Of a stretch of 64,000 bases of DNA, positions 1 through 34,850 are shown piece after piece (the stretch's first letter is position 1; every line of letters starts with the position of its first letter). The DNA lies in the NCBI RefSeq assembly GCF_038396675.1, contig NC_088931.1, positions 40,692,501 to 40,756,500 on the forward strand, read 5' to 3'. The notes below the pieces were generated by a model that was not told where the DNA came from, did no database searches, and saw only the letters and a list, made by a program, of their open reading frames with translations. The translations under genes and the position numbers were made by a program. Source of the DNA: Hydra vulgaris (taxonomy: Eukaryota; Cnidaria; Hydrozoa; Anthoathecata; Hydridae).

Positions 1-447
1 CTTGATGATATCAAAAAAAAAACATTATTCTAAATTTTATGATTTTTCACAAAACATAAGAATTTTGATCTGCAAGTGTATGGATTTCTATATATGGATA
101 ACGGGGTACAGGCCCCACTTTTTTGTAGTGGAATCTTGCAATACATTTTGCACTACCTTTCAGACTAGCTAAAGCTATGAAAATTTCTGTATTTATATAG
201 TGTCGATAAACGAGCTTTTCAAAATTAAAAAAAGGCCCAAGACACTAGGGGAGGGGGCTGGGGGCATGTGCTCCACTTTTTTGAGCAGAATCTTGAGATG
301 AATTTTTCACTATCTTCCAGACAAGCTGCAGCTCTGAAACTTTCAGCATTTGTGTAGTCCCCATGAACATGCGTTAAAATTGTTTCAGGTCAGACGACCA
401 GATAGTCCATGGGGCTGAGGCACCTGGGACTATGCCCCACTTTTTTT
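1..447 (+). repeat. Left terminal inverted repeat of the 4.7-kb transposon
   Basis: Matches the reverse complement of 4230-4679 along nearly its whole length, with scattered substitutions and small indels. Short ORFs across it are composition artefacts. Confidence 0.85.
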
Positions 448-1075
448 CTCAAAAAAAATTTTTTTTTTTTAAACTTATTTAAGATAACTTTAAAACTATT
501 GTCTTCGAATTTTTTTTTTAGATTTTCATTTTTAACAACGTTAAACATTTCTTTGATAAAATTGCTTCCCAAATTTTTGTTATTTATATTTGTTCCATTT
601 GGTTTTGATCATTCTATGTTCAATAATCTTTCTTAAAATGTTGTAAGAAACTTAATGTTTATAAGAATTTTGATTTGCATGTATAAGATTAAAAACAGTC
701 TAAAGTAATGATTTTAACAGAATTTTATTTTGTATAATTTAAAATTTGAATTAAAAAAGAATAATATATTTTTCAAATTCTAAAATGGTAACAGCAAGTT
801 GTTAACAGAAACAAAAAACATCCAGTCATTACACTTGTATAGAAGAAATTTGTTACCTATTAAAGTCATCATTAACATTTTTAACATTAACAAATTGAGT
901 ATAATTAAACTTTGTGGAAAGGAAACTTTCTTTTTGTCAAAGTAAGATAAAAGAAATCAATCACTGTTTAGTTTTGTATTACCATGGTGATTGCTTAAGT
1001 TGCTTTCATTAAATTAATTACTATTGGTTTCTCATTTTTAATTAATCTCAAATTGTTTTTAGTGTTACAGTAAGA

Positions 1076-4000
1076 ATGGATTCATGTGATTTTGGAAAAA
1101 AGTTAAATGATACTTGTCATAAACTAAGTTATTGTAGAAAGATTGATTTAAAGCAATTTGATTGCTATAGAGAAGATGCTAGAGAAGAATTTATTTGGAG
1201 ATCTAGAATAACAGATGATAAAATTTTAACAATCTACCTTCATCATGAAAAGATTTTTGATACACACTTTGAAAAGAAGCACACAAAATGTTGTAATTTA
1301 TTGGACAAGCATAAATCAAAAAGAAAAGCAATTAAAGGTAAATATTGTTAAAAGAAAAGGCACTAAAATTCGCAGAAGCATTAGGAGAGTTGGATTTTAA
1401 AGCATCTGATTGTTGGTTTCATAATTGGAAAGAAAGGTCAGTTAAATTTTGTCAAATCTTGTTCAATTTTAATATAAACAAATAACATGTATCTGTTTTT
1501 ATTTAATTTATTTAGTTTTTTAAACGTGTAATTAAAATTCAAGTATTCTGTTCCTATTTTTAGGTCAGCAATTTTATTTAAGTCGGGCAATTTTATTTAT
1601 TTTCAACCCTTTTCTTGATATCTCGAACTCTCGATATCTCGAACTTTTTTTCCGGTCCCTTTAGTGTTCGAGATATCGAGAGTCGACTGTAGTTTATAAA
1701 AGTTTGAAAAAAAGCTGATCTGGTTATGCATTATATATTGTAATAAGTACAAATAATTTTCATATTGATAGGTAATTACTAAAATAAAATTGTTCTTTTT
1801 ATTTCAGGGAGTCATGTAATAACATTAGACATGGCAAAACAATTGAGAATTAATTTTCCAAATGTTGTGCCTGGATATCAACTTTGTCAGAGCTGCTTTG
1901 ATGCTATAATCAGTAAATTTCATGAACAAGATAATTGTGAACTTTAAGAATCTATTTCATGTGGTACTTCTGAAAAGTCACGAGATGCATTAAATGTTAG
2001 TTTGGAAACAATAGGTGTATCCCCCATAAAACTTCATGGCATTCCAAAGCATCAGTGGTAATCTGTTGCTAAAAGTAAAGTTATAAAAACAATGTCAAAG
2101 TATGAAGAGCATATTTCAAAAGTATATAATGTTAGGGATGAAGAACTGAAACATAAAATTCCTCATATGAAAATTATTGACAAAAGTAAACGCGATGATC
2201 TAGACAAACTAACAGCAGAAATAAAAGAAAAGTTAATTGATTCTGACCAAAAAACTAAAATTCAGTTGTTAACATTTACACCCGAGTCTTGGTCAAGAAA
2301 TTTTGCTGCAAGATATTTCAACGTCACTATATACCAAATTAAAGAAGCGCGCAAACTAAAGAAAATAAGTGGGATTTTTTCAGTTCCAGGCACTAAGAAA
2401 GGAAAAATATTTTCAGAAATAACATTAAATAGAGTTAACAATGTATACCATGATGACGAATTTACTAGACAGATGCCTGGTAAAAAAGATTATGTAAGTA
2501 TTGGTAGAAAACAACACGTGCAAAATCGCCTTATTTTATGTAATCTTAAAGAACTTTATGCTTCTTTTAAAACTAAATATCCTCAAGAAGTTATTGGATT
2601 TTCTAAGTTTTGCAGTTTAAGACCAAAATGGTGTATAACTATTGGAGCATCAGGCACTCATTCTGTTTGTGTATGTACCCTCCATCAAAATGCAATACTC
2701 TTGACCAATGCTATATAAAATACAAAATAAAATGTACTTACAAAGATCTGATGACAAAAGTTGTTTGTGATGTAACAAGTAACGAGTGCATGGTTCATTG
2801 ATGTCTGAACTGTCCAGGTATAGTTTCTTTAAAGAAGTTTCTGGATGCACAACTAATTGACAATGACGAGGAAGTGTCATTCAATCAGGGGCAGAAAACA
2901 GACAGAACAACATTGATCAACAACAATGGCAACAACAATGGCAGACAACAACAATGGAAGAATACAAATTGATGTTATCAGAGGCAATAAATAAGTTAAC
3001 AGCTCATTCTTACATTGCAAAATGTCAAGCAAGATACCTAAAGCAACAAAAGGAAAATTTAGCAAAAGACTGTCATATTGTCTTAGGTGACTTTGCAGAA
3101 AACTTTGCTTTTGTGATTCAAGATGAAATCCAAAGTTACAATTGGTGCAAAAGTCAATGCACATTGCACCCCGTTGCCCTCTATTTATTAAACGAAAATG
3201 ACTAACTTGAAGAAAAATCGTTTTGCTTCATGTCAGAAAATAATGAGCATGACACTGGTTTTGTGTATGAAGTTCAAACACAAATAGTTAACTATTTAAA
3301 AGAATATCATCCTAAAATTTCAAAGATTCTTTATTTTTCTGATGGTTGTGCTGCACAGTATAAAAATCACAAAAACCTTTACAATATCTGTCTCCATAAA
3401 AATGATTTTGACATTGATGCAGAGTGAACATTTTTTGCTACAAGTCATGGTAAGTCACCATGTGATGGTATTGGTGGCACTGTAAAACGATTAACTACAA
3501 AAGCAAGTCTATAAAGGCCCATAAATGACCAAATAATGAATTGTAACAAAATGTTTGACTACTGTACTAACAATATTAAAGGGATTATTTTTTTCAAGAT
3601 TGAAAAAGAAAGACTGACAGAATTGCGCACAACTTTGAAAACATGTTTTGAGCTAAGTAGAACAATTCCTGGAACTAGCAGCTATCATCAATTTAAACCA
3701 GAATCTATAAATACTATTAGCTTTAAACAAACAAGTGAAGATGTTCATATGACAGGCATTTTTTCTTTTTCTGGTATTCAAAGTTCTCAAAATGATCAGC
3801 AAATTAACATTGATGCCTTGAAATTGGGTGAATTCATTATGTATAAATATGATGTGTTTGATTGGATTGATATGATCAATGAAATTGATAATATAGAGCA
3901 AGATGTTATGGTAATGTTTATGCACCCGCACAGTCCTTTTAATAAACTTTTTTGGCCATCTAGAGTAGATGAGTGTTGGATGCCAATTACCAACATAACT

Positions 4001-4087
4001 TGTATAATTGATGCACCTGTAATAAAAAATGGACGTTTTTATACTTTGATCGTCGATGCATCTAAGCTAACCTTAACATTATCTTGA
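1076..4087 (+). pseudogene. Two-exon transposase pseudogene inside the long-TIR element
   Basis: Exon 1 runs from ATG 1076 to 1337 and ends AAAG|GTAAAT; exon 2 starts at 1808 after TATTTCAG, and the join is in phase (87 codons plus one base, then GG). Exon 1 has paired cysteines (HTKCCNLLDKHK), probably zinc-binding. Exon 2 contains SLRPKWCITIGASGTHSVCVC, LGDFAEN, FSDGCAAQYKN and, in another frame, FFATSHGKSPCDGIGGTVKR, all of which recur in a transposon-encoded family of cnidarians and insects. The Asp residues of DFAEN and FSDG are plausible DDE-type catalytic positions (inference). At least six lesions break it: stops near 1946 and 2059, frame changes near 2700, 2880 and 3205, and a stop at 3427. 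The C-terminal 183 codons (3536-4087) are open. I recognise the family but cannot give a firm superfamily name. Confidence 0.8.
1351..1691 (+). mobile_element. Tigger (pogo/Tc5-like) 3' fragment nested in the transposase intron
   Basis: Bases 1351-1437 encode KALKFAEALGELDFKASDCW, which matches the CENP-B/Tc5-type helix-turn-helix of Tigger transposases. At 1612-1689 is a Tigger-like end, GATATCGAGAGTCGACTG, followed by TA (1690-1691), the target duplication typical of the Tc1/mariner group. This end folds on itself: CTCGATATCTCGAAC near 1630 pairs with GTTCGAGATATCGAG near 1666. The catalytic region is missing, so this is an internally deleted copy. It lies wholly inside the intron of the surrounding transposase gene. 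Confidence 0.7.
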
Positions 4088-4229
4088 CTTTCTTTTTTTT
4101 GTATTTTATTTTGTAAATAATGAAGTAAAACGGAACAAGTATAAAGCAATAAAAATTTTTGAATACAATATTTTCAAAGTTATCTTAAATTTAAGACATT
4201 TATGTGTTTAAAAAAAAAAAAAAAATTTT

Positions 4230-4679
4230 TTTATGAGAGTGGGGCATGGTCCCAGGTGCCCCAGCCCCATGGACCATCTGGTCGTCTGATCTGAAACAAT
4301 TTTAACGCATGTTCATCAGGACTACACAAATGCTGAAAGTTTCAGAGCTGCAGCTTGTCTGGAAGATAGTGAAAAATTCATCTAAAGATTCTGCTCAAAA
4401 TAGTGGGGCACATGCCCCCAGCCCCCTCCCCTAGTTTCTTGGGCTCTTTTTTAATTTTGCTCGTTTATCGACACTATATAAATACAGAAATTTTCACAGC
4501 TCTAGCTAGTCTGAAAAGTAGTGCAAAATGTATTGCAAGATTCCGCTACAAAAAAATGGGGCCTGTGCCCCGTTATCCATATATGGAAATCCATATACTT
4601 GCAGATCAAAATTCTTATGTTTTGTGAAAAATCATAAAATTTAGAATAATGTGTAAAAAATTTTTTTTTGATATCAAGG
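4230..4679 (-). repeat. Right terminal inverted repeat of the 4.7-kb transposon
   Basis: Inverted copy of 1-447. The outer tip ends at about 4679, just before GCCACGTGGG, which is flanking DNA. Confidence 0.85.
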
Positions 4680-4756
4680 CCACGTGGGTTTTTGAGCATC
4701 AAAATCAGGTATATAAACAATTGCCTAAATTTATTTAAATTGATAATTACAGGTAC

Positions 4757-4934
4757 TTTTTTTTTTTTTATGGTGCCCCAAGAAGTCTTGTCACAGAACA
4801 CCGCGGAAGTGCATTTAACCGGGAAGTTCACGCCTCCTTCCTTACCGTGACGCGAAAATTTGTCTATAGCTCGTTTCGAACCTGGATCTCCTGCTTATAA
4901 AGCAAGCGCTCTAACCACTGCGCCACGGCTGCAC
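4757..4934 (-). mobile_element. tRNA-derived SINE, copy 1 (type A)
   Basis: Read on -, it starts GCCGTGGCGCAGTGGTTAG (A box), then TTATAAGCAGG in the anticodon arm and GGTTCGAAACGAGC (B box), followed by an unrelated body (GTCACGGTAAGGAAGGAGGC) and CTTGGGGCACC, ending in poly(A) (poly(T) at 4757-4769 on +). It has an internal RNA polymerase III promoter but no CCA-ready acceptor stem, so it is a SINE, not a tRNA gene. Copies with the same layout occur at 26971 and 52412. Confidence 0.88.
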
Positions 4935-5531
4935 ATGCACTTAAAAATATTTTTTTATAATATTGATTATTTCATCGGATTCTTCAACCCTGAAAATAGC
5001 CATGTACAAAATTTAAGTCAAAATATCAAATATTTTTAAAGCTATGTGACTTAGAACCTTTAAACAAAGGTCATAATTCTGAGAGGACGAGGGGCCTGGC
5101 CAAGATCAGTTGAAAGTAAAATGATCATATTTCAGGATCCTCTTGGAGCTAGAAGCTAATACTTTCAAGAGTTTCTTGTTTTACTAAATACTCTCAACTG
5201 TATAAAAATCAGCAAAATCTGAGATGTATGGTCACATTTTTGAAATTTTCTGGCTCAATTGACATGGAATTACCCTATACTCTAAATACATAAAAAAGCA
5301 ATATATTATATTATTATGTGATATAAAGCTTTTTAAAAATGTAATAATATGATTGGACTGAGCAAAAAACATGTATTATTGATTTAATATATAATAAATG
5401 TTTTTTTTACATTGATACTTTATAAATGTAATATTAGTACTTATATCACAAAATCATTGTATAGAAAAATCACATAAATTTTTTAATAATAATTATTATT
5501 GGCTTATAAAAACGAATATTTAATATCCTTC
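4935..5531. other. AT-rich spacer, no gene seen
   Basis: No coding potential beyond chance ORFs on either strand. A GAGGACGAGGGGCCTGG block near 5080 is richer in G/C and may be old transposon sequence, but nothing identifiable remains. Confidence 0.5.
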
Positions 5532-5573
5532 AGTACCCCCCGCCCCCTCCCCGCTTCCCGCCCTCCCTCATCT
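5532..5573 (-). other. G-rich tract on the minus strand (G-quadruplex candidate)
   Basis: The + strand is almost purely C and T. The - strand has successive runs GGG, GGG, GGGG, GGGGG and GGGGGG separated by 1-4 bases, satisfying the usual four-run G-quadruplex pattern. It is a strong compositional outlier here. It directly abuts the 3' end of the mariner remnant at 5579-5858. Confidence 0.6.
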
Positions 5574-5578
5574 GCTAG

Positions 5579-5858
5579 TTAAAATAAATTCAGCTCAGTC
5601 AGCTTCTCAACACGTTGTCTTTTGAAAACCTTTAAATTCAAAGATTTAACAATTCTACAAACAGATGAATGTGCGCCTCCCACTACCAATTCGTCTATCG
5701 GCAACACCTGTCTGTCGAATACATTGTAATACACATTGATTTATTGATTGAATACTCCAATTTTTATTTGCAAAGAATTTACAAACGCGAATTGCACCCC
5801 AGTGCTTTTCTAGATAAATAGCATCAACTGCAACCAAATCTTGTTTGCTTTTTCGCAT
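5579..5858 (-). pseudogene. Mariner-family transposase, N-terminal remnant
   Basis: From ATG at 5858 on -, the reading is MRKSKQDLVAVDAIYLEK, then KHWGAIRVCKFFANKNWS, then RQTGVADRRIGSGRR: the paired helix-turn-helix DNA-binding part of mariner/IS630-type transposases. The frame closes at 5655. In a second frame the sequence continues HSSVCRIVKSLNLKVFKRQR and VEKLTEL, the next conserved block, before a stop at 5579. The stretch normally between them is deleted and the catalytic DDE/D domain is absent, so it cannot act. A mariner-like terminal repeat about 180 bp upstream (6037-6063) supports the identification. Confidence 0.8.
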
Positions 5859-6036
5859 GTTATTCTTAAGTGCAATAAACCATTCAAATATAACATTAAT
5901 CTTAAATACAATACCATCATTACCATAGCATAAACACCTATATGATGCAACACAGTGTGTAACACTAAAATCTAGCAAAAAGGAACAAAAAATAACATTT
6001 CTAACATTTTTGCAATTTAAAAAAACTTCTAAAAAT

Positions 6037-6063
6037 ACAGTGCCACTTTTTCTGGCACACCCT
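6037..6063 (-). repeat. Mariner terminal inverted repeat (5' end)
   Basis: On - it reads CAGGGTGTGCCAGAAAAAGT, closely resembling mariner-type ends, with TA just outside (TATATA at 6062 onward). It lies upstream of the start of the transposase remnant, as expected for one end of the same element. The opposite end was not found beyond 5579. Confidence 0.7.
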
Positions 6064-6524
6064 GTATATATACATACATATATATTAGGGCAGGTCGAAT
6101 TACAACTTTTTTTCGATTTCAGTGTTTGGCATTATGGAGATAATTTCTAAACAGTCCAAAAACACATCCTGGAAAATTTTATGAAATTAAAATAGTTTCT
6201 TCATGAGCGATTTTAGCTTTGAAGTTGGGTCCTAAGGCTTTCCGCGCAACATTTACTGCGGCATTGTATTATAAATTCACGACCCAACTAATTTATATTT
6301 ATTTTAACTATTTAATGAAAAACCTATCAAAATAAAATAAATAAAAAGCAAAAGGACTGACAGTTACTTAGAAATAAAGAAAAACAAAATAAAGTACTCT
6401 AAGTCAAAAAAAATATATTTTTTTTCTAAGTTAGATATTCATACTTTAACAAAATTCTTTTGTAAATTCTGGTCCGGATTTTATAAAAAAAACGCAAATT
6501 TAAAATGTTGAAAATTTGTTTAAT
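6064..6524. other. Probable non-coding transposon end, unassigned
   Basis: TTAGGGCAGGTCGAATTAC at 6087 looks like the tip of a DNA transposon, but no inverted partner was found near 9600, the other side of the neighbouring transposase gene. A ~35-bp stretch near 6293-6328 (TTTTAACTATTTAATGAAAA) recurs inside the hAT MITE at 6590-6620. No gene. Confidence 0.35.
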
Positions 6525-6532
6525 GGTTATAT

Positions 6533-6644
6533 CAGGGGTCTAAAACTGTAATCCTGCGGCTCTTTTTTTAAAATTATTTAATGAATATTTATTTTAACTA
6601 TTTAATGAAAAACCTCTCAACCTTAAATAGATTGCCGACGCCTG
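6533..6644 (+). mobile_element. hAT-type MITE, 112 bp, with perfect 8-bp target duplication
   Basis: The element begins CAGGGGTC and ends GACGCCTG, an imperfect terminal inverted repeat of hAT type. It is flanked on both sides by GGTTATAT (6525-6532 and 6645-6652), a perfect 8-bp duplication, the hAT signature. It has no coding capacity. The intact duplication suggests a fairly recent insertion. Confidence 0.85.
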
Positions 6645-6652
6645 GGTTATAT

Positions 6653-6921
6653 AATAGAATATTTGTAAAATAGAAAACTATCTTAATTATTTCAGATAAG
6701 TTAAATTTATCCAATAAGTTAAATTTTAATAACGATTATTAAAAACCTTTGAAATAACTGTCAAAATTTTAAATTATATAAAAGATTCCATAAAAAAAAT
6801 TGCATTCAGATCTTTTTATTTATTAAGAACCACGCGAGGTAATGACTAACTCAAAAATTATTATACATTTTTATTAAAGTTTAATTTTACATGTACAAGT
6901 AGCAATAAATTAGTTTTTAAA
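6653..6921. other. AT-rich spacer downstream of the transposase-like gene
   Basis: Nothing recognisable; probably the 3' untranslated and flanking sequence of the - strand gene that ends at 6922. Confidence 0.4.
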
Positions 6922-9584
6922 TTAACAAAAAATATCATCATATGTCTCACCGTAATAACGTTTAGACATAAAACTCTTTCTATGCTTTTTGCTTAGAATT
7001 TTTGCTAAAATATGCTTATGACGTGCTTCCTTTCCAAAAACAGTACGAGAAGCCATGGAAACAATTTGTACAGATCTCTTAACACTCTGTGAATGTGAAG
7101 GAAGACCTGGGAGGTCAACTTTTTCTCCAGATAATAACTTTCCTACTATCTCTTCATCAGTAATATCTTGAGTTGTTGCTGGTTCATCTATGTCTTCATC
7201 AAAAATGTTTATGAGCTCATACCATATATGAGCATCAATGTTAATTTCTGGAATTTTATTAATTCTGTTTATAACTTGGCCATCTTTTTTACGATTTCTA
7301 ATATCAAGTAATCTCTGCATTGCTATTGATCTTATATATATTTCCTCTGACTTTAACATTGATTACAAAATATTCTCAGGAAGTAGGCAAAAAGTATTGA
7401 ACCTTAAGTTTGCTAAGCAAATATCTTGCACCTCTTTTCCTTGGAGCTTGATTTGGTTAATCATAAAGTATATAATTGATGGAGCTTCGTGTAACTTATT
7501 GCTCTTTTGATGGAGGAACCATGTAGGAACATAGACTTGGACAATATAGGTTACCAAAATAATTAATTTAGAATCAGGAACTAGTACTCGGACATATAAA
7601 GACATCAACCGTATTGCCAATGTTAACCAACGAGAATGATTAAGGGGACCAATTTTCCAACTTGAATATTTAACACTCATATTTCCAGTGGCAATTGCAA
7701 TGCAATATTCATATAAAAGCCTCTGGTCACTACTTAAATCATCTAAAATTTCTTTTTCTAAAACAATAATTGGAGACTTAATAACACCAAAATTAACAAC
7801 TAAATTAAGCTCATTATTGATATTTGCCATTTTACCTAAAGGTCCAGCAAAATGGTTTGGTGAATTAGTTACTCCATCAATTTTTTTAAACAAAGATCTA
7901 AAGGGAAGCTCATTTTGATGAAGATTGCAGCCTATAGTCTGAAGTTTTCGTCCTAGTTTTTTCTCTAACTCCACAACCATTCCTGCTTTATGACCTGTGT
8001 TTGTGGAAGTATTGTCTGCCAAAACTGCTTTTGGAGTGTTTAAAGAATCATACTCTTCAAGAACTTCGTATAGGCACTGAGCTTGCTTTTTTCCTGTTGC
8101 TCCAACAAGAGGTAAAACTTTGTGAGTAAGATACTCCCCACTGTAAAGGTTAGGGAGAAGTTCTTTAGTCACAGTCATGTGATGTTCTTTCTCTGTTGAT
8201 CTCTTTAACACAACCTCACCATCTTCTCTTTTTATTTCTCTTATAACTAAAGTTTCATTATCAATTTTACCATCAACACCAAGGCAAACAAACTCTCTGT
8301 TATTTTCAAAGGATTTTAAGTCTGACAATACTTTAACTGACTTTTTTTGTCTGTCTATTTTGGATTTGTCTAAAACTAAACTTGATATAATTGCTGGATC
8401 ATTAAACAGTCCTGATAGATCGAGCAAAAGAGCATTTCCTAATGCAGCTCCAATCGAACTTCCTATATCGTTTCTGATCAACTCAATAGCAAACTTTGGA
8501 AACTTCCAAAGATTGTAAATTCCTGATGGACTTCTTGCAGGCTCCCATATCTAAAAGAAAAGTTATAAAGTTAATTAACAAAAAAATTTTATATAAAAAA
8601 GTGATATGTTAAAAAGAAAGTAAATTTAAAAAATGTAACAATGAACTAAATTTCGATTTATTAGTTAATTACCTCACTTGAGCTAGAAATAACAGATTCT
8701 GAATCAGATTCTGATAATACTATTTCTGGAAGTAAATTAAATGTTTCTTGTTGTAATGATTGTTCCATATTTTTATGTTCAGTTTTATGTTTCTTTAAAG
8801 ATCCTTTTCTAGACATTTCACAATCAACTGAGCCAAGTTGAAATGATCCTTTAGGACCTGACTTATCTCTCTGGTTTTTTAAAATAACCTTTCTTCTACA
8901 GGAACCTAAATATTATTTGATAATATTGAGAAATTGCATATGAATTTCATTGTATTAAACTTTATCACTCTAGTAATATACTTGTGTTCATTTTATTTAA
9001 AAAAAACTTTTATTTTATTTATCTATTATTAAAAAATAACATAGTACTTTTTTATCTGGACTACATGTGCATAAAATATGAGTATTAGGACAATTATTTT
9101 GACTACATTTGATATTTTTATCATTACAAAGTACAACTTTAAGGTCACATATGCAGGAACTGATATCAAAAAGCCTATCCAATTTTTTAGAAGTGTTTTT
9201 TTCTGTTAATACTTGGCATTTTCTTCGGTTAATTAACCTGGATATGTTTAGAAGTACTCCAACTTTTTTTTCGACACAATATGTGGACATTAATGGTAGC
9301 CGAGTGTTAACTTTTTTCCAAATCATGATTACTTTTTCAGCTATCAGTTTTAGAATTACGCTAAAGCAATAACTTGGATAAGTATTGTTAAGAAAATAAA
9401 AATCTTGAATAATCTGTCTGTTTGTGGGTGGTTCTGTATTTGGAAGAGGGTTAGGACTTCCACCAAACTTGCTTTTTGTGCAATTTCGTGTTTTACGCTT
9501 GTTTGAAAACATTATTTTTCGTCCACAAAACTTTCTTTTTCCAACACAATTATAACATTTGTTTACTTTGCGTAAGTGCGGCAA
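6922..9584 (-). pseudogene. Three-exon transposase-like gene with one in-frame stop
   Basis: Exon 1 (9584 to about 9048) has a cysteine cluster (CYNCVGKRKFCGRK), a conserved block (NRQIIQDFYFLNN), KLDRLFDISSC and a second cysteine group (CSQNNCPNTHILCTC). Exon 2 (about 8905-8673) is basic then Ser/Glu-rich. Exon 3 (8550-6922) is the long RNase H-like part: CLGVDGKID, KAVLADNTSTNTGHKAG, TIGCNLHQNELPFR and GPLNHSRWLTLAIRLM. The exon 2/3 junction is clean and in phase (GTAATT donor at 8672, TTTTAG acceptor before 8550). The exon 1/2 frame is unresolved. One TAA (7363-7365) interrupts exon 3 after LLPENIL; the frame then stays open for 145 more codons. The first codon visible is TTG, so a true ATG may lie upstream or be lost. 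The family is transposon-derived and repeated in cnidarian genomes; I cannot name the superfamily. It is the best preserved transposase in the window. Confidence 0.7.
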
Positions 9585-12401: not shown

Positions 12402-12451
12402 TTTTACGAATGTAAGTACGAATCTAATGATTCGTACTTACATTTGTAAAA
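12402..12451. repeat. 23-bp hairpin just before the Tigger start codon
   Basis: Arms 12402-12424 and 12429-12451 are inverted copies with one mismatch around a TAAT loop. The right arm runs into the ATG of the following pseudogene. Confidence 0.85.
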
Positions 12452-13194
12452 TGCAAACAACTTACACTGAAGAGCAATTGCAACTTGTTGCAAATCAAAG
12501 AAGGCGAAGTATCACTCAGTACTCAGTTTCAGAGGCATACAACATACCTAAGGCAACACAACTAAGGCAACAAGCGTGTGCACAACAAAGTCAAATCACA
12601 TTGTAGAGGTACAACTACCTAAGTACAGCATTTGAATTTGTTCTTGTTTTAGTCTTGCTCAGAGCTTCTTCATGTACCGAGGACAAAATAACAAGTTATT
12701 TCAATACACTTCAAAAACAATTTCTTGAAGCAAATATCAGCAATAACACTTTGTGCAATTGTGGAATTTTGACGAAATTGGATTTTCAGGCAATCAAGGT
12801 AAACAGCATATAATTTGCAGGCTTGTTGTTAAACACCCTTTAAAATTGGTTGGGAACAATAAAAAAATTATTTACTCAGTCGATAATTGTGTCAACGCTA
12901 CCGGTACCATTCTGCCACCATTCGTAGTTTACAAATCAATATCACGTCTGTACAAAGACTGGTATGTAGGATGACCGCTAAACACCATATTTACAACATT
13001 CAAGTCGTGTTGGAGAAACAATTTATTCAATGGTTCCCTAAAGTATTCATACGGCAATCAAATTAATTCCAGATAATTAGTTTGGTCTACTTAAATTGAG
13101 CAGTTTAATCAATCAATCAACTAATCAAATATTTTTTTAATTACAGGTATTTACATTTTAGTCTCGGACGGATACATCACACATGTTACTTACA

Positions 13195-15467
13195 CACTCT
13201 AAAAACCATCCATTAAAAATAGCAATGGATTGCTTTTTTCCCTAAATTAAATTAAGTAATTTGTAAGCAAAAATCACTTAATTAACGAAGTAAAATAAAC
13301 TATTTACGGATTCTTCGAAATTTCGTTAATTAAACGGAATAAATATTCAAATCCGTTGAAAAACAACTGAATTTTTTATTAAAAAGGGTTTCTATAAAAA
13401 ATTATGAAGTGCTTTCTCTGTAAATTATATTTTTAAGTCTTGTTTGTTTGATTTAGATTTGTCAATATATTATAGTTCTTTATTTATAAATGATAAAGTT
13501 TTAAAAGACGTTTTTCTTAAACCACATTTAAGTTGTAGATAAAGGTTTGTTGCAGTAAGTTTAATTTGCCATTTTTAAATAGCTTTCGACTAAATGTGAA
13601 GCTACTTAAAAAAAGTGTAATTTAAATTGTGTTTGTCCATTTGCTTTTTTTACTAAATTTTAGTAGTTAAACTTGTTTTAAATTTTCTATATTAAGCATT
13701 GAATATATGTTTAATTTTTTTTATATGATAAACTAAAGGGTTAATTGAACAATTATTTCTATAATTAAGACTATATGACTTGTATATATTCTTGTGTAAT
13801 TTTCTATTTTAAACGTGACATGAAGTAACTTACCGTATAAATTTAAATTAGTTGTAAAATTAAAAATGTTAATTAATTAATTATTTCTTTTGATGCCATC
13901 AAAAGACCCATCAATGATGGATATCATTATTTAGGTTAGTTGCAGCTATGTTTACATAGATCTAGTTTAAATTAGTTGTAAAACTATTTTTTTTTGTTAG
14001 TTGCAACTAAGTTTATATATTGCTTGTTCATATTTGTATAGAACTTGCTACTTTAGACATGATTCATTCAGGCATGAGATATCAAATTTAAATGTTTACT
14101 TGCATTTATTTTAATGGGTATATTTATTTAAACTAGTTGCAGCTAAGTTTACTTATAATTTGTTTATATGCTTTTATAATTGATTATTTTAAGCACGTGA
14201 CATGAAATATCACACTGTAAGTTTCATCAGTTGTAAAATGTTTACTTGTATTTCTTTTTTATGGGTATTTAATTAGGCTAGTTACAGCAAAGTTTATATA
14301 TGGATTGTTATAATTTGTATGATTAAGTTTGTATATGCTTTTACAATTTGCTATTTTAGACAGGTGTCATGCTATATCACACAGTAAGTTTAAATTAGTT
14401 GTAAAACTATTTTATTTTTTTTTTATCGCAATTTTTTTATGTTAGTTACAAATAAGTTTATAAAATTGCTTGTTTATATTTGTATAGAATTTGCTACTTT
14501 AGACATGTGGTATTCAGGCATGAGGTATCAAATTTAAATACTTTTAACGTTTTTATTATTATTAAATAAAATTTAATTTAATATATTGAAACGTAGAACC
14601 AATAAAATAACATAATTTTTATTAGTAATTTAGAAATAAAGAATTAGCAACAAATGTTTCTTACAGGGTTATTAGTAAAAATTTATTTCCATTTTGTATT
14701 ATGGTATATAATTTATATTCAATATTTTCTTTATTGTATTTTAAGGTTTGTTCATCTTTAAATAACCAACAACAATTTGCTGGAATTGAAATGTGCACAC
14801 ACATGAATTTACAACAGTATTAAAAATTGAAATCTAGAATAGTAACAATTGTATACATGTCTGTGTTTTTTATATAAATGTTTTTTGATCTTGAATTTAA
14901 TAACTGTATTAATAAAATATATATTAAGAAACTTTTTATAATTTTCTTTAAATTTTTTAATTTTTATTATAATTGAAAGTTTCTATATTGAATTAAATTA
15001 TTATAAATATTTAATTAGTTTTCAATTAAACAGTTAAAACGTTTTAAAGCTTTCTAAAAATCTCTCCCGATCAAGTTAGTTTGTATAAGTAGTACTGCTT
15101 GTATCAGATGTTGAATATCATAATAAAATAATCTATATACTAAAAATAAGGACTATTTTGTAATGAAATCTCAGTTCTATCTGGCTTAATTCCTTGCTAA
15201 TTTTGATAAAGGGAATAATAAATTATTCAATACAATGACGTAGTAAATTATTTATTTTACCAAAACAGCAAAAGCCGCCTAGCGTAATAATTCCTTTATT
15301 TTAACGAATTGTTTGTTACACGAACAGAATAAATCCGTAGTTTTAACGGACTAATATTGACGAACTTCAATCCGTTAAAATTTTAATCTGTTAACATAAC
15401 GGAAAATCCGTTGGTGCAATAGCGACAGATGCAGTTCGTTGTATATAACAGATTTTTTCTTAGAGTG
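13195..15467 (+). mobile_element. 2.27-kb non-autonomous CACTA-like DNA transposon
   Basis: The element starts CACTCTAAAAA and ends CTTAGAGTG, so its tips are inverted. CA lies immediately outside both ends. Removing the element and one CA restores an uninterrupted reading frame in the host Tigger gene, which fixes the borders and indicates a 2-bp target duplication. Subterminal regions hold many copies of TCCGTT and its complement AACGGA in both orientations (near 13310-13360 and 15300-15410), as in CACTA/EnSpm-type elements. No ORF of note; the middle is diverged tandem repeats. CACT tips plus a 2-bp duplication fit the CMC group (Mirage-like), by inference. Confidence 0.8.
13790..14545 (+). 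repeat. Diverged tandem repeats inside the CACTA-like element
   Basis: Five degenerate copies of a unit with TTAGTTGYAGCTAAGTTTA, then TTTGCTATTTTAGACATG and a following ATATCA block, begin near 13790, 14032, 14170, 14335 and 14480. Spacing varies from about 130 to 240 bp. Confidence 0.7.
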
Positions 15468-16500
15468 CAATGTTGTATGTATTTGCATTGACAATAACAT
15501 CAGGCTGATATGTTTACCGGCTCATTTGTCCAACATATTTCAACCGTTACACGTAGGTGTATACTGTCACGTTAAACGAGTTTGACGCAAATTACTTACA
15601 GAATTTTATGCAGCTACAAATTTCAACAACTTAACAAAAGAAAATTTTATTAAACTACAAGCAAACTTTTAAGCTCCGGCAACGCATTTACACGAACACA
15701 AATAATCGCTGGATTTCAAAACACTGGATTATTCCCACTTGATATTAACAAAATTTATCAATCAAAATTAAAATTCCTCAAACATTTTATGACCATCTTA
15801 GCCTGTTTCATTATCTTCATCCGAGCCTGCTTCATCATCCTCAATCAAGCCTGCTTCATCATCCTCAACCGAGTCTGTTTCATCATCCTTATCCCAGCCC
15901 GTATTATCATTTAACATCAGTCAGCATCGAACTCCAAAAATTATTAAACTCAAAGTTTAACAACGACACCACTGACTTCTGCTCAAACGTATCAAATATT
16001 GCAACACTTCACAGAAAGACTTAAAGGCAATTTGAACAATGTTTTACAGCGCCACCATGCTGGCACACACACACAAAAAAAAAACGACCAAAAGGCTAAA
16101 CATTCCAAGAGTTAAAGGCCAGTGTCTAAGTACATCTGAGGTGCTCGAGAAACTAAAGCAAGACAATGAGGCCAAAAAGTCAAAGTAGTTAAAGAAAAGC
16201 AAGATTCACTTCAGTGAAGTTTTAAATGAAACACAGCAAGTGCAACATTCAAAAAAACGGAGACAAGACAAATACATCAAGAGGTGCAAAAAGTGTCACA
16301 GAATTTGGGAAGAAGCATTGCCAACTCAAAACAACATGTGGTACCATTGTCAAGCTTTTAGTTTTAAGTCTTGGGTTTGTCGATTGTGTTTACTCAAAAA
16401 ATACAAAATTGGTGAAGAGTTTTTTTGCATGAAAAAATGCCGCGAACCTTCTTCTGACAATGAAACAATTCAAATTTATTTAATTAATAAACAGTTATAA

Positions 16501-17481
16501 TAAACAATCTTAATCGATTGTTATAAAAAATTAACTAGTTTACCATTCCCAATTATAAGGGGAAAAGTAAATGTTTTTTTTTCTTCATAAAAATCGATTT
16601 TTGAAAAATTTTCCAAATCTTTTTTCTCAATTTTTATATATTTTATGTAATGTAAAAAAATCTCTATAAAACAAAAAAGTATATTTATATTTTCTATAAA
16701 ATGATAATTAAAATAATAAGCTCTTTGAAAGTTTGCTCAATCCTTTAACCAGTAAAAAAATATTTGAGATGTTTTGCAATTAGTATTTTGCAATTAAAAT
16801 TTGCAAATAGTATTTTAAAGGGTTATAGATTTAATTGAAGGTGAAAAAGATAATTTGTTTAAATTCTTTTTTGTTTCAAAAGCATTAACCTAGTGTAAAA
16901 ATAATGTTACATATTTTAATTATTCTTGTTAACTTAATGGTTTATTAAAAAAATGATGTCGAAAAAAAATACATTTTAGATTTGACCCAAAATGTGTAAA
17001 ACTTGTTAGCACTTCACGTTTCTTATGACAGAACTTAAGTGCTTAAACATCGTAAGTTAAAGATATTTTTTTTTCTTTGGTTCGAATTAAAAATTTGAGA
17101 AAAAATTTGCTCTATGAAGGTGAAATTGTAATTTTAAAAGAAATATGGTGAAACCTGGTAAGATATTACGGATCAATTTTAATAGAACTATGGTGAAATC
17201 TAGTAAGAGCAACAAAAAAAGTTTCAAAATGAGTTAATTAAGCAAAACAAGTTAGCAATTTATTGTGGTATTGTAATTGTAAGATCAGATGATTGCCATC
17301 TGTTCTAATACAACGAATTAGCAACACTGGCAATGGTGTTATTAGATATGAGGTTTTGGATTATCTGTCAAAGATTTATGTATAAAAACCATGTTTACTA
17401 CTAAATGATAGCATTATTGGGCGAGAAAACTAAAGAACGAAGATTACAGATTTTTGTCAGATTGAAGAAACAATGGCCTCT
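16501..17481. other. AT-rich spacer
   Basis: No gene seen. Contains loosely repeated phrases (GGTGAAACCTGGTAAGA near 17149 and GGTGAAATCTAGTAAGA near 17190). Confidence 0.45.
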
Positions 17482-18131
17482 GTTAGAAGATTATCAAACA
17501 ACGGATATCTGTTAGAAGATTATCAAACAACGGATATCTGTTAGAAGATTATCAAACAACGGTTATCTGTGAGAAGATTATCAAACAACGGATATCTGTT
17601 AGAAGATTATCAAACAACGGATATCTGTTAGAAGATTATCAAACAACGGATATCTGTTAGAAGATTATCAAATAACGGTTATCTGTTAGAAGATTATCAA
17701 ACAACGGATATCTGTTAGAAGATTATCAAACAACGGTTATCTGTTAGAAGATTATCAAACAACGGATATCTGTTAGAAGATTATCAAACAACGGATATCT
17801 GTTAGAAGATTATCAAACAACGGTTATCTGTTAGAAGATTATCAAACAACGGATATCTGTTAGAAGATTATCAAACAACGGTTATCTGTTAGAAGATTAT
17901 CAAACAACGGATATCTGTTAGAAGATTATCAAACAACGGTTATCTGTTAGAAGATTATCAAACAACGGTTATCTGTTAGAAGATTATCAAACAACGGTTA
18001 TCTGTTAAAAGATTATCAAACAACGGTTATCTGTTAAAAGATTATCAAACAACGAATATCTGTTAGGAGATTATCAAACAACGAATATCTGTTAGGAGAT
18101 TATCAAACAACGGATATCTGTTAGGAGATTA
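17482..18131 (+). repeat. 29-bp minisatellite, 22 full units plus a partial
   Basis: The unit is GTTAGAAGATTATCAAAC followed by AACGGATATCT. Twenty-two units fit exactly from 17482 to 18119, then a 12-base partial. Two variants, with GGATAT or GGTTAT at the same place, are interspersed; the last four complete units carry other changes (AAAAG, AGGAG, CGAATAT). No spacers separate units and no frame stays open, so it is neither CRISPR nor coding. Confidence 0.95.
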
Positions 18132-29827: not shown

Positions 29828-32800
29828 AAAACTAAATAAAATAAACTTCTACAAAAATCTAATTAAATACTATAAAATACCTCTATTTAGTAGTAATATA
29901 GATTAATACATACTGGTTAATAATATAAGTTATATTATTTTTAAATAAAATTAATTTAATTTACTGTAAATAAATTGGGGAATTTTATCAACAAATCATT
30001 CAATAACATCTTTTCATTTATTTCAGTTCGCTGCAAATAGTATTTGAGTTCTTCAGGACTGTTTGAAACACTGAGAACTGGTTCTCGGTTCAAGCAACCA
30101 TAACTATCAGTTTTTCTTTTTATAACATCTGCTAATAATTGTTCCTTTTGGGATTCCATATTTAAAACACTCATTAATGGTGGAACACGGTTTGGCCGCT
30201 GCAGATAGTCATAACGGTTTACTAGTTGTAACGTTAAACTGTCATGACCGCTACTAATCACTGTAGTACCATACTCATCTTTAAACGATTTAGGATATTT
30301 GGCAACCATAGAAGATGCAATTTCATCTAAATGTTTTTTTAATGGCTATGGGCAAACAGCAAGGACATCATTCATAATAATCCTTATAATTGCACACCGA
30401 AGTGCTGTTAAAGGTCTTTCTTCAGCTGCTAATATATCTTGTACCTCTTTAGACATTTTGGCCCAAGGTAAAACAAATGTCAAATACCAATCAGCAGCAC
30501 TTACATGTTTAATCTTCATTACTATTTAAAATATTGACACAATATTTTAAATAGAGCAATTAAATATATAAAGAACACTAACTAAATATTTTTTTAATTA
30601 CTATGTTTTATTAATAACTTTTTTTAATAACTTACTCGAAATAGTTAAGTTATTTTTCATTTCAACTGTGGGCACCATTTGTATGCTGGATTGTGTGGCC
30701 ACAATAAAATCTACAGAGTTTTGGGATTGTTCTGCATAAAATTTTATTAATATTATAAATAAAAATATATAAATGTATATGATAATAAAAATCATATTTA
30801 TTTTGAGTATCATAAATCTTTTTTACCAGAGCTTTCCTTTGCCCAAGATTCAAGGAGTTTGCGTTGTTGAATGGGTTTTAGCAAAACCAAATCATCAACC
30901 AGGTAGAGATCTGTTTCATTTTCAACACCTATTTCCCATAAATTTTTCACAACCTGGTTTAAAACGCATCCGCCAATATTTGGCAGTGTTCTTAAAATAT
31001 TACTTTTAATAACCTGCATTATCTAAAAAAATAGATCATATATAACATGTGTATATATCAAGAGTATCATAATAAAAGTCATATTATATTGTAAGTATAT
31101 TTTACAGAGTTTGATGTGGTTATTCAATTTAAAAGATTACAACTAATTAAATTTAAAAAACATATATATAGTATTCACAAAATGTAGTATTCAAAAAAAA
31201 AAAATTAAATTAAAAATATATATATAAAATATTAAAAATTTTACTTGCTTCCATTTTAAATTATACTAAGCAAAAAAACAAAATATTATTACATTATACA
31301 TATAATTATGTAGCAAAATTCTTAAAAAAGAAAGTTTTCTTAAAACGTTTTTATAATACTCTCTACTATTGTTTTTGATTGGTTCTTATGACTGGTTCTT
31401 TAAATAATATTTCTGAAAAAAACTGCTCACATTTACTGCATAAATACTATAAATAAAATAGTTTACAAATAAAATCTTTTATCATGATATTGCCAAATAA
31501 AATATATAACTTTTAAAAATTATTTATGTAAACCTGTAGTTATTCGATGAGCATGACACAGAGTGCTTTAAGGAAATAAAAGAGCGATTGCAGTGCTTGT
31601 AAGATGGTAGTGGAAGGTAGTCTATTAAAGAAGCAATCATTATACATCGAATCTCATTATTTTCTCCACAGACCTCATACATACCAAGCTCATGCACAAA
31701 TTGTGTGTTCTGCTCATTAATAAGAGCATACACAATTCCATGTGTATCAAAAAAAAGAAACAAAATTCTTGCAAAAAAAGGAAGTTCGTGATCCTTTATC
31801 CGGCAGTTGTCCACATGTAGTTATAATTGCCTCAGAAATGGTAGAACAAAAATTTTTGACATTGAATGAAAATGAATTGACCGCGTAAATTTTTGAACTT
31901 GGTATGCTTGAATTATTGTATGATTGCAACAACTGGTGTGTCTCTGTTAAGGTTTTACATACATGCTTGTAATTGTTAAAATTTCTGGCACATTTTTTAA
32001 AGTAAGAATGCTTTTGTTCAAACCTTAAAGTGAAAACTTGCATTAGAGGCCCGTAACGTAAAATTAGCTGTGGATAGTGGGACAAATAATGATGTTTTGA
32101 TAATAGTTAAGAAGAAGATAATAATTTTCTACGAGAAGACAAATAACCATTTATTAAAACCTGCAGATAAGCAATATGTTGAATGTCAATTTTAGGTGAA
32201 CATATAATCTCAACAATTTCTTTCAGTCTTAAATACAATAACCACACAGGATCTTCAAAATCTAGAATGTAAATTCCTATATAAAGGGGAAACAAATGCA
32301 AAAACACCCAGTTTTGAACTGCATGACCACTTAACTTTTCAGTACTCGAAGTTTTATTCATCTCACAAGGTTTATCAAAGGCATCTCCTTCAAAATACTT
32401 TTGCATGTTAATTCTTCTGCTGATGTTGTTAAATGAAAACCATCGCTTACTAACAAAATATTTAACAAATAGATACATATCTCGTGAAGCAACGCCTTCG
32501 AAGATATCATGAGCTAAGCATGGTGGCAAACCTGTAGACACATGAAATCCACATAAACCATTAAATGGTGAATTAAATTTTATTCCTTCAAAATTGTTAC
32601 CATTACTCTGAGCTAATTGAAGCAGGCTATTATTGTGGCTTGATTCTGTTCGATCTAGTCCACAGAATTGAGGGTTAAAATCAAACTCTGCACTTTGCTG
32701 AGGCCAAAGTACTTTAAATCTGCATCTTTACACATAAGTACCAGCTGTAGCTGCTCCGATGCATATCTTTTGTGTGATGGAATATTAGTTAATGTTAAGT

Positions 32801-33957
32801 AAACTGCAAGTATTTTATGTTTTTTTCTTCCTGATCCAATTGGGTTGACAATTTCAAAAGAATCTTGATATAGAATAAGATATAAAATTTTATCATCAGA
32901 CTTTGCAATATCTTGAATTAGGGATCCACTCAGTAAGTCTCAAAATTTTCCTCATGTTTTACCCAAAACCCAGGTTCATTGCTGCGTTTATTGTACATCA
33001 TTTTTAACAAGTCCTTTATTGGAATATGATGAACAGTTCTAAATTTTTTATTGGCATCAAAACCTAAAGTAAATTCTATTGGAGATATGTAACTCATGTG
33101 TTTATGAAAATAAGCTTTCATTTTTTTATTAGTACTTAAAGAGTACAAACTGTTTATCTTTATTTGTTCTGACTTATTTTTATTTAATATTTTCACAGAT
33201 ATTGCTGCTTTGATTCGAGATTGCAGAAGTCAGACTTTGAACAGAGAATTAAGTACTTGAATTATTAACTACCATAAGTTCATCAAAAATAGATTGAACA
33301 CAAGAAGCTGGAAATATATTTTTTACTTGCAATTTAAAAAAAAAGAGAGCTTGATCCTTCAAATATTTTTCAGAAGAAATATCATCAATACAATCATGAA
33401 ACTCTTCATTTTCATAGTGTTCTAAAGATCCACATGAAATGCTTTCTTGTTCAATGGTGTTAACATCTTTATTGTTGATTAAATTAGAAGAATTTAAGCT
33501 ATGTACAACATACAGTGGCATGATAAAACTTGAATCCCATTGCTTGTGTCGTCTTGTTATATGAGATGCAAAAGAATTTCGATTAGTGTAAGAACTTTTG
33601 CAATTCATGTAAGGACAATGAACGCGGTCAAGTGAATCAAGATGCAATTTAAGATGTAAGATAAACTGAGATAGTCCAGCACATATTTTTTTACATAGTG
33701 CAATATCACATTTAAAACTTTGGAAAATGTTATTTATTTCTGTTGTTAGTTTATTTTCGATAATACTTTTATTATGTTCTTTTCTTATATGCAATTTGAA
33801 AGTTGATTACGCTTTGAAATAATTCTGCAATTTGAATGCAACAAGGAAATTGAATATTAGCTAAATTGCGATGGCTTTGATAATGAGTCATATAACTCAG
33901 CAAAGTTTTAATTTTTTTGCCACAATGGTTGCATGCTTTTAAATCCAATTTAGACAT
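28699..33957 (-). pseudogene. Zinc-finger/SAM-domain transposase-like gene, multi-exon and decayed
   Basis: On - the parts read in order: C2H2 fingers (CNHCGKKIKTLLSYMTHYQSH near 33930, then CPYMNCKSSYTNRNSFASH near 33590); ILYQDSFEIVNPIGSGRKKH near 32850; STGLPPCLAHDIFEG near 32540; HAVQNWVFLHLFPLYIG near 32320; KHHYLSHYPQLILRYGPLMQ near 32075; TLRFEQKHSYFKKCARN; a SAM-like domain at 31019-30810 (NLWEIGVENETDLYLV...LKPIQQRKLL); a block at 30516-29956 (WYLTFVLPWAKMSKEVQ, SMVAKYPKSFKDE); and C-terminal pieces FNILYPKEALSLLEFCQRY near 29000 and FFGINPEKGRKA near 28800. Several gaps look like introns. Lesions include a frameshift near 33800, stops near 32943, 32098 and 30350, and a frameshift near 31800. 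This architecture is a transposon-derived family known from fish and cnidarians; superfamily not assigned. Confidence 0.75.
29745..29826. repeat. (TA)n microsatellite in a probable intron
   Basis: Alternating TA with one TTT interruption near 29780; it lies between two coding blocks of the surrounding pseudogene. Confidence 0.95.
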
Positions 33958-33973
33958 TATCTTTTTAATAAAG

Positions 33974-33975
<2 letters not shown>

Positions 33976-34047
<72 letters not shown>
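33976..34047. repeat. (TA)n microsatellite
   Basis: Alternating TA, with a phase break near 34000, just upstream of the zinc-finger pseudogene. Confidence 0.95.
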
Positions 34048-34719: not shown

Positions 34720-34850
34720 TTTACCGTGAAGTAGTTAAGAGCCGTGTTCGCGGCCAAAATACCGTAATAATTACGGTATTGTACCGCAAAATGCTTTCAC
34801 GGTGAAATACCGTGTTATTCACGGTATAGTACCGTGAATTTCACGGTAAA
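34720..34850. mobile_element. 131-bp palindromic MITE with CCGTGAA repeats
   Basis: Tips TTTACCGTGAA (34720-34730) and TTCACGGTAAA (34840-34850) are exact inverses. The inside repeats the same theme: ATACCGTAATAATTACGGTAT, TTTCACGGTGAAATACCGTG and ATTCACGGTATAGTACCGTG. It has no coding capacity. Densely repeated short inverted motifs suggest many protein-binding sites or a strong secondary structure. Confidence 0.65.

Follow-up and report, generated by a model that had tools for sequence, protein, structure and literature searches.

A probable non-autonomous CACTA/EnSpm-type element inserted into a Tigger-type transposase gene of Hydra vulgaris

The window analysed here, a stretch of 64,000 nucleotides from Hydra vulgaris, contains a decayed Tigger/pogo-type transposase gene whose two parts are separated by an insertion (Table 1). 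Direct reading of positions 13193–15469 gave CA-CACTCTAAAAACC...GATTTTTTCTTAGAGTG-CA, that is, an element of 2273 bp with inverted tips of 8 bp and CA on either outer side, as the initial annotation had described. Removing the segment together with one CA produced a single open frame (...SDGYITHVTYNVVCICIDNNIRLICLPAHL...), in which SDGYITHVTY runs into NVVCICIDNNIRLICLPAHL in the same frame, and when right-flank offsets of 0–4 were tried, offset 2 alone brought the left frame into CIDNN. The left Tigger half by itself had no match to the Pfam family DDE_1, the right half by itself matched with an E-value of 4.2e-6 and the joined peptide with an E-value of 2.6e-8. Residues 6–55 of the joined peptide align to DDE_1 profile positions 79–128, and there is therefore no gap across the join, in agreement with the earlier claim that excision of the segment plus one CA restores the Tigger frame. 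Querying the PDB with the joined peptide returned no match. For the host Tigger copy, looking for inverted ends turned up only a weak AT-rich match and, for this reason, its own borders are not given.

Table 1 Features of the Tigger locus and its insertion, in window coordinates
Feature	Position	Strand	Basis
Tigger/pogo-type transposase gene, 5' part, interrupted, decayed	12451..13194	+	Start by eye; stops and frameshifts present
CA target duplication, left copy	13193..13194		Direct reading; CA target in 5/14 Tigger paralogs read
Non-autonomous CACTA/EnSpm-type element (probable), 2273 bp	13195..15467	+	Tips, empty sites, sister copies; no coding capacity found
Left terminal inverted repeat CACTCTAA	13195..13202	+	Direct reading and sister copies
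Left subterminal array, 6 degenerate TCCGTTA/TAACGGA motifs, one mismatch each	13209..13358		Motif count
Diverged internal repeats, AGTTGCAACT-type palindromic core	13774..14540		Sequence reading; more units in 3.2-kb L026
Right subterminal array, 8 motifs, 3 exact	15292..15452		Motif count
Right terminal inverted repeat TTAGAGTG	15460..15467	-	Direct reading and sister copies
CA target duplication, right copy	15468..15469		Direct reading; CA target in 5/14 Tigger paralogs read
Tigger/pogo-type transposase gene, 3' part	15468..16500	+	End by eye

When the genome was searched with the right Tigger flank, 43 of the scored candidates matched, a number that includes the window's own copy. We read across the insertion point in 14 of the 15 matches that reach to within 5 bases of it (the window's own aside), a set that includes the near-duplicates L040/L041 and L042/L044. 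The insert is absent from all 14 paralogs, which thus represent natural empty sites; the target dinucleotide is CA, as in the join, in 5 of them and CG in 8, with a small deletion in the remaining 1. The element sits inside an existing, older Tigger copy.

We then turned to the genome (911.5 Mb in 15 contigs), where the search for other copies that the initial annotation had suggested, run with the left 300 bp and with exact tips, uncovered a family. With the left 300 bp as query, 126 candidates were obtained, of which 40 were scored; all 40 matched, the window copy among them, with the other 39 at 86–91% identity to it, and 36 began at query base 1 and the remainder at base 2–4. Exact 18-base tips occur 52 times (left, including three from one tandem repeat) and 42 times (right) genome-wide, with 0 occurrences of the reversed controls, and a search of viral contigs with the right 20 bp of the element gave 0 matches. 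The tandem repeat, L056 (C5:4773828-4773923), carries the first 27 bases of the element three times in a 39-bp repeat, an element end turned minisatellite.

We fetched 20 copies, ranking 2–21 among the 40 scored left ends. Both ends were present in one orientation in 11 copies, 10 of which show a 2-bp duplication; the other nine (L009, L014, L016, L017, L022, L024, L025, L027 and L028) had no right end of the same orientation in the stretch, and L025 joined the duplication count later, within the exact-tip set described below. Among these 11 other full-length copies, the left tip is CACTCTAA in 10 (the exception, L010, has CATTCTAA) and the right tip is TTAGAGTG in 10 (the exception, L012, has TTAGAGTA). 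A further 18 copies were chosen because one or both of their 18-base tips were exact (both in most of them), which biases this set to intact copies; the duplication matches over 2 bp in 17 of the 18 and over 3 bp in 0. In all, with a 17.0-kb copy on C8 (TA duplication) added to these two sets, 28 of the 30 both-end copies other than the window's carry a 2-bp duplication (TA in 19, CA in 5 and TG in 4, read on mixed strands, with CA and TG being one step from two strands). Every one of these 28 duplications is a pyrimidine–purine (YR) step, compared to 24% of dinucleotides in the window, with the TA duplications at C1:65501866 and C10:20588191 being weak evidence because both copies lie inside (TA)n tracts.

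Tips, empty sites and sister copies thus back both borders and the 2-bp duplication originally proposed, and tabulating the flanking dinucleotides, a check set out at the same time, returned 2-bp YR duplications. The outcomes named in advance as counting against the proposal, namely other borders, another duplication length or a lack of relatives, were absent among the copies read, apart from two unmatched duplications, one per set (L011 and C7:13211909). At only 8 bp the tips might be suspected of belonging to a chance indel and not to a transposon; in simulations, a tip of at least 8 bp with a matching 2–10 bp duplication arose within 20 bp of a random border pair in 8 of 20,000 trials. The copies throughout the genome, the empty sites and the duplications refute this reading and leave its probability close to nil.

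The family has moved, and it includes a recent subfamily. The seven members of this subfamily that were read, copies of 3074–3239 bp, are 96.6–99.7% identical to one another over their best aligned stretch. The window copy is more distant, at 90.8–91.6% identity to the seven over the best aligned stretch, or 93.0–93.5% over ungapped columns of the multiple alignment.

Inverted CAC...GTG tips, by which CACTA/EnSpm (CMC) elements are recognised, are present in the window element, its 2-bp duplication lies within the 2–3 bp expected of such elements, and arrays of short subterminal motifs are a further trait of the CACTA/EnSpm family. Allowing at most one mismatch, we counted 14 TCCGTTA/TAACGGA motifs in two clusters of the window element: 6 lie no more than 164 bp from the left tip and 8 no more than 176 bp from the right tip, with 0 in the interval. 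None of 1,000 shuffles of the two 200-bp ends reached 14 motifs, and of the remaining 200-bp bins of the window, 303 in number, none held more than 3, with a minisatellite at 17.3–18.2 kb set aside. The initial annotation had reported repeated TCCGTTA near both ends; because the three exact motifs of the window copy all lie close to its right end, this holds at both ends for the degenerate motif alone and for the exact motif at the right end only. In L026, a recent sister copy, exact motifs occur at both ends, with 18 of 22 motifs near the ends and 4 internal, and the 300-bp tip stretches of L111–L114 contain 7–10 motifs each. Judged from sequence, both subterminal arrays probably form a transposase binding region. 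Separately, the minisatellite at 17479–18130 consists of around 22 units of 29 bp (by eye), in which TCTGTTA and AACGGAT recall the subterminal motif of the CACTA element.

No open reading frame of at least 100 amino acids was found in the window element, and its six frames matched no Pfam family at E ≤ 1, so that its class rests on its ends and relatives. The core of the internal repeats gave 5 matches in the window copy compared to 8 in L026. This core includes a perfect 14-bp palindrome, TTAGTTGCAACTAA, at window positions 13997–14010, variants of which are kept in L026.

Several long copies were considered as autonomous partners and rejected, each being an ordinary element with nested DNA. 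L024 carries LINE-like frames (by eye) and L009 an open reading frame with a THAP domain, and L025 contains a nested 6.1-kb unit with an intact 936-aa open reading frame (3031–5838, minus strand) of no named kind, which has no Pfam match. A 17.0-kb copy on C8 (L052/L053), flanked TA/TA, was likewise set aside, its nested unit having inverted ends of its own of around 84 bp. In this copy and in a 20.4-kb copy on C4 (L070, CA duplication), the latter read at its ends only, foreign DNA begins at element position ~211; the two have AGGAGCCGTT (10 bases) in common just past position 211 and then differ. The difference in target sites between the C8 and C4 copies suggests that an element already interrupted at ~211 transposed with its cargo, and we tentatively raise the possibility, which we consider somewhat less than even, that very large loaded versions of this small element move as units. 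The two copies may instead record two separate insertions at one spot.

A transposase remnant within the window itself was also considered as a partner. On the minus strand, positions 31747–33980 hold a broken remnant of a CMC-type transposase with HDIFEGV, HHYLSH and RFEQKH (by eye). Relatives of this remnant gave 150 scored matches of 298 candidates, many with long open frames, and a search for its element ends did not find them. As a partner the remnant was rejected: of 141 related places (the 150 matches minus second pieces or close neighbours of listed places), 0 came within 66 kb of any of the exact tips compared, 50 on the left (omitting two of the three in the C5 tandem) and 42 on the right. 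The N-terminal part of the remnant is weakly C2H2-like. Nearby, at 34720–34850, an inverted ACCGTGA/TCACGGT cluster (by eye) may mark where another DNA element ends.

A looser tip pattern gave 110 places in the genome, 100 of them among the matches listed, where at least 20 tips fall beyond the exact-tip set. Three of these 20 variant tips (on C11, C3 and C9) sit no more than 11 kb from one of the 141 transposase-like places and point at it, compared to the approximately 0.19 such cases that chance would give across the full 110 tips. The C11 place, L110, is a 6960-bp element (L110 positions 53–7012) with TA on either side. Its tips match at 23 of 24 bases. Of its 25 motifs, 19 are no further than 190 bp from an end, and the right subterminal block shares 86% identity with the short non-coding family across 57 bp. 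A frame at 1850–3658, interrupted by two in-frame stops, reads in order FIDAFEV, FSADNLGAHTL, CRFC, HHFMLH and MRFEAKH; assigned by eye, this decayed frame appears to carry D, D, C(2)C, H(4)H and E, the general CMC signature. The protein of L110 is related to the window remnant (E-value 2e-26), and a Pfam search with four L110 frames named no Transposase_21 (PF02992) or other such domain. Because of the two in-frame stops, and because similarity is limited to parts of the ends, we regard L110 as a relative and not as a proven donor. Of the two other places, C3 (L111) has a left end like that of L110 (96% over 140 aligned bases) and, 4.8 kb further in, a related transposase match, and the C9 tip (L112) was rejected as a transposase-linked end, being a right end of the non-coding family. 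An L110-type left end also occurs on C12 (L114), with none of the 141 transposase-like places nearby. The initial annotation had advised looking for a copy encoding a CMC transposase; the search yielded a relative with matching tips and a decayed frame, and none of the 141 transposase-like places lay between the exact tips compared of the window's own subfamily.

With the class of the window copy hanging on its ends and relatives in the absence of detected coding, its tips could have converged on those of CACTA elements from a different superfamily, such as Chapaev or a unit unrelated to CMC. The agreement of flanks over 2 bp and never over 3 bp in the exact-tip set, as well as the CMC-type signature seen by eye in L110, make this a very remote prospect. 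Chapaev elements are described, in excerpts from the literature, with target duplications of 3–4 bp, and no copy in that set has a duplication of such length.

The initial annotation had favoured a Mirage-like branch. Mirage elements are described with 2-bp duplications, and the 2-bp duplication and CACT tips seen here would suit an element of Mirage type, mobilised by a Mirage transposase. According to excerpts of the respective papers, however, these same features have also been described in animal CACTA elements, 2-bp duplications being on record for SmTRC1 and other TRC elements (PMC1636069), for Spongebob_HMa of Hydra (PMC4298943) and for ENS1_Cis and CMC-NA (PMC6004678). A 2-bp duplication with CAC...GTG tips therefore does not tell Mirage apart from animal CACTA/EnSpm, and the Mirage assignment is not supported. 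In addition, the transposase frame found within such ends falls in the large genome family with 150 scored matches, and the four CMC mentions found in excerpts of a Hydra study are EnSpm, Transib (twice) and Chapaev-3 (PMC12220107). We consider a Mirage origin improbable, to a degree only slightly short of that for convergence from a different superfamily.

Together, our results make it very likely that the segment is a non-autonomous CACTA/EnSpm (CMC) DNA transposon that entered a Tigger copy by cut-and-paste, with a relative's transposase acting in trans. In such a mechanism, a relative that has the same ends and lies elsewhere in the genome would supply a transposase that binds the subterminal TCCGTTA arrays and cuts at the CACTCTAA tips. 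The excised element would be joined to target DNA whose strands are cut 2 bp apart at a YR step (here CA), a dinucleotide that repair would then duplicate. An L110-type enzyme presumably moved the short copies in trans, with the TCCGTTA motifs as its putative binding sites, and a bigger L110-type relative in the genome may have supplied it.

The window family is an ordinary, well-bordered addition to the known animal CACTA/EnSpm group, and ordinary too given that CMC-EnSpm is named, in excerpts of that study, among the putatively active Hydra families (PMC12220107). What it offers is a cleanly bordered animal CACTA family with matching YR duplications, empty sites, a recent subfamily and a transposase-bearing relative, and with these in hand, the way in which animal CACTA enzymes find element ends and select TA, CA or TG targets becomes testable in a lab animal.

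Among known systems, plant CACTA/EnSpm (En/Spm) elements have in common with the window element their CACTA-like tips and subterminal arrays, but create 3-bp duplications and not the 2 bp seen here; Mirage shares the 2-bp duplication. The MITEs ENS1_Cis and CMC-NA resemble the window element in their CAC...GTG tips and 2-bp duplications, and CMC-NA is likewise non-autonomous, although the MITEs in excerpts of that paper are 116–422 bp long compared to 2273 bp (PMC6004678). As far as excerpts of their descriptions go, SmTRC1 and Spongebob_HMa share with the window element the 2-bp duplications, inverted tips and membership of the CACTA superfamily, but their tips start with CCC in place of CAC, and SmTRC1 encodes a Transposase_21 protein whereas no coding was found in the window element. 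Spongebob_HMa, described with multiple full-length copies, comes likewise from Hydra (PMC4298943).
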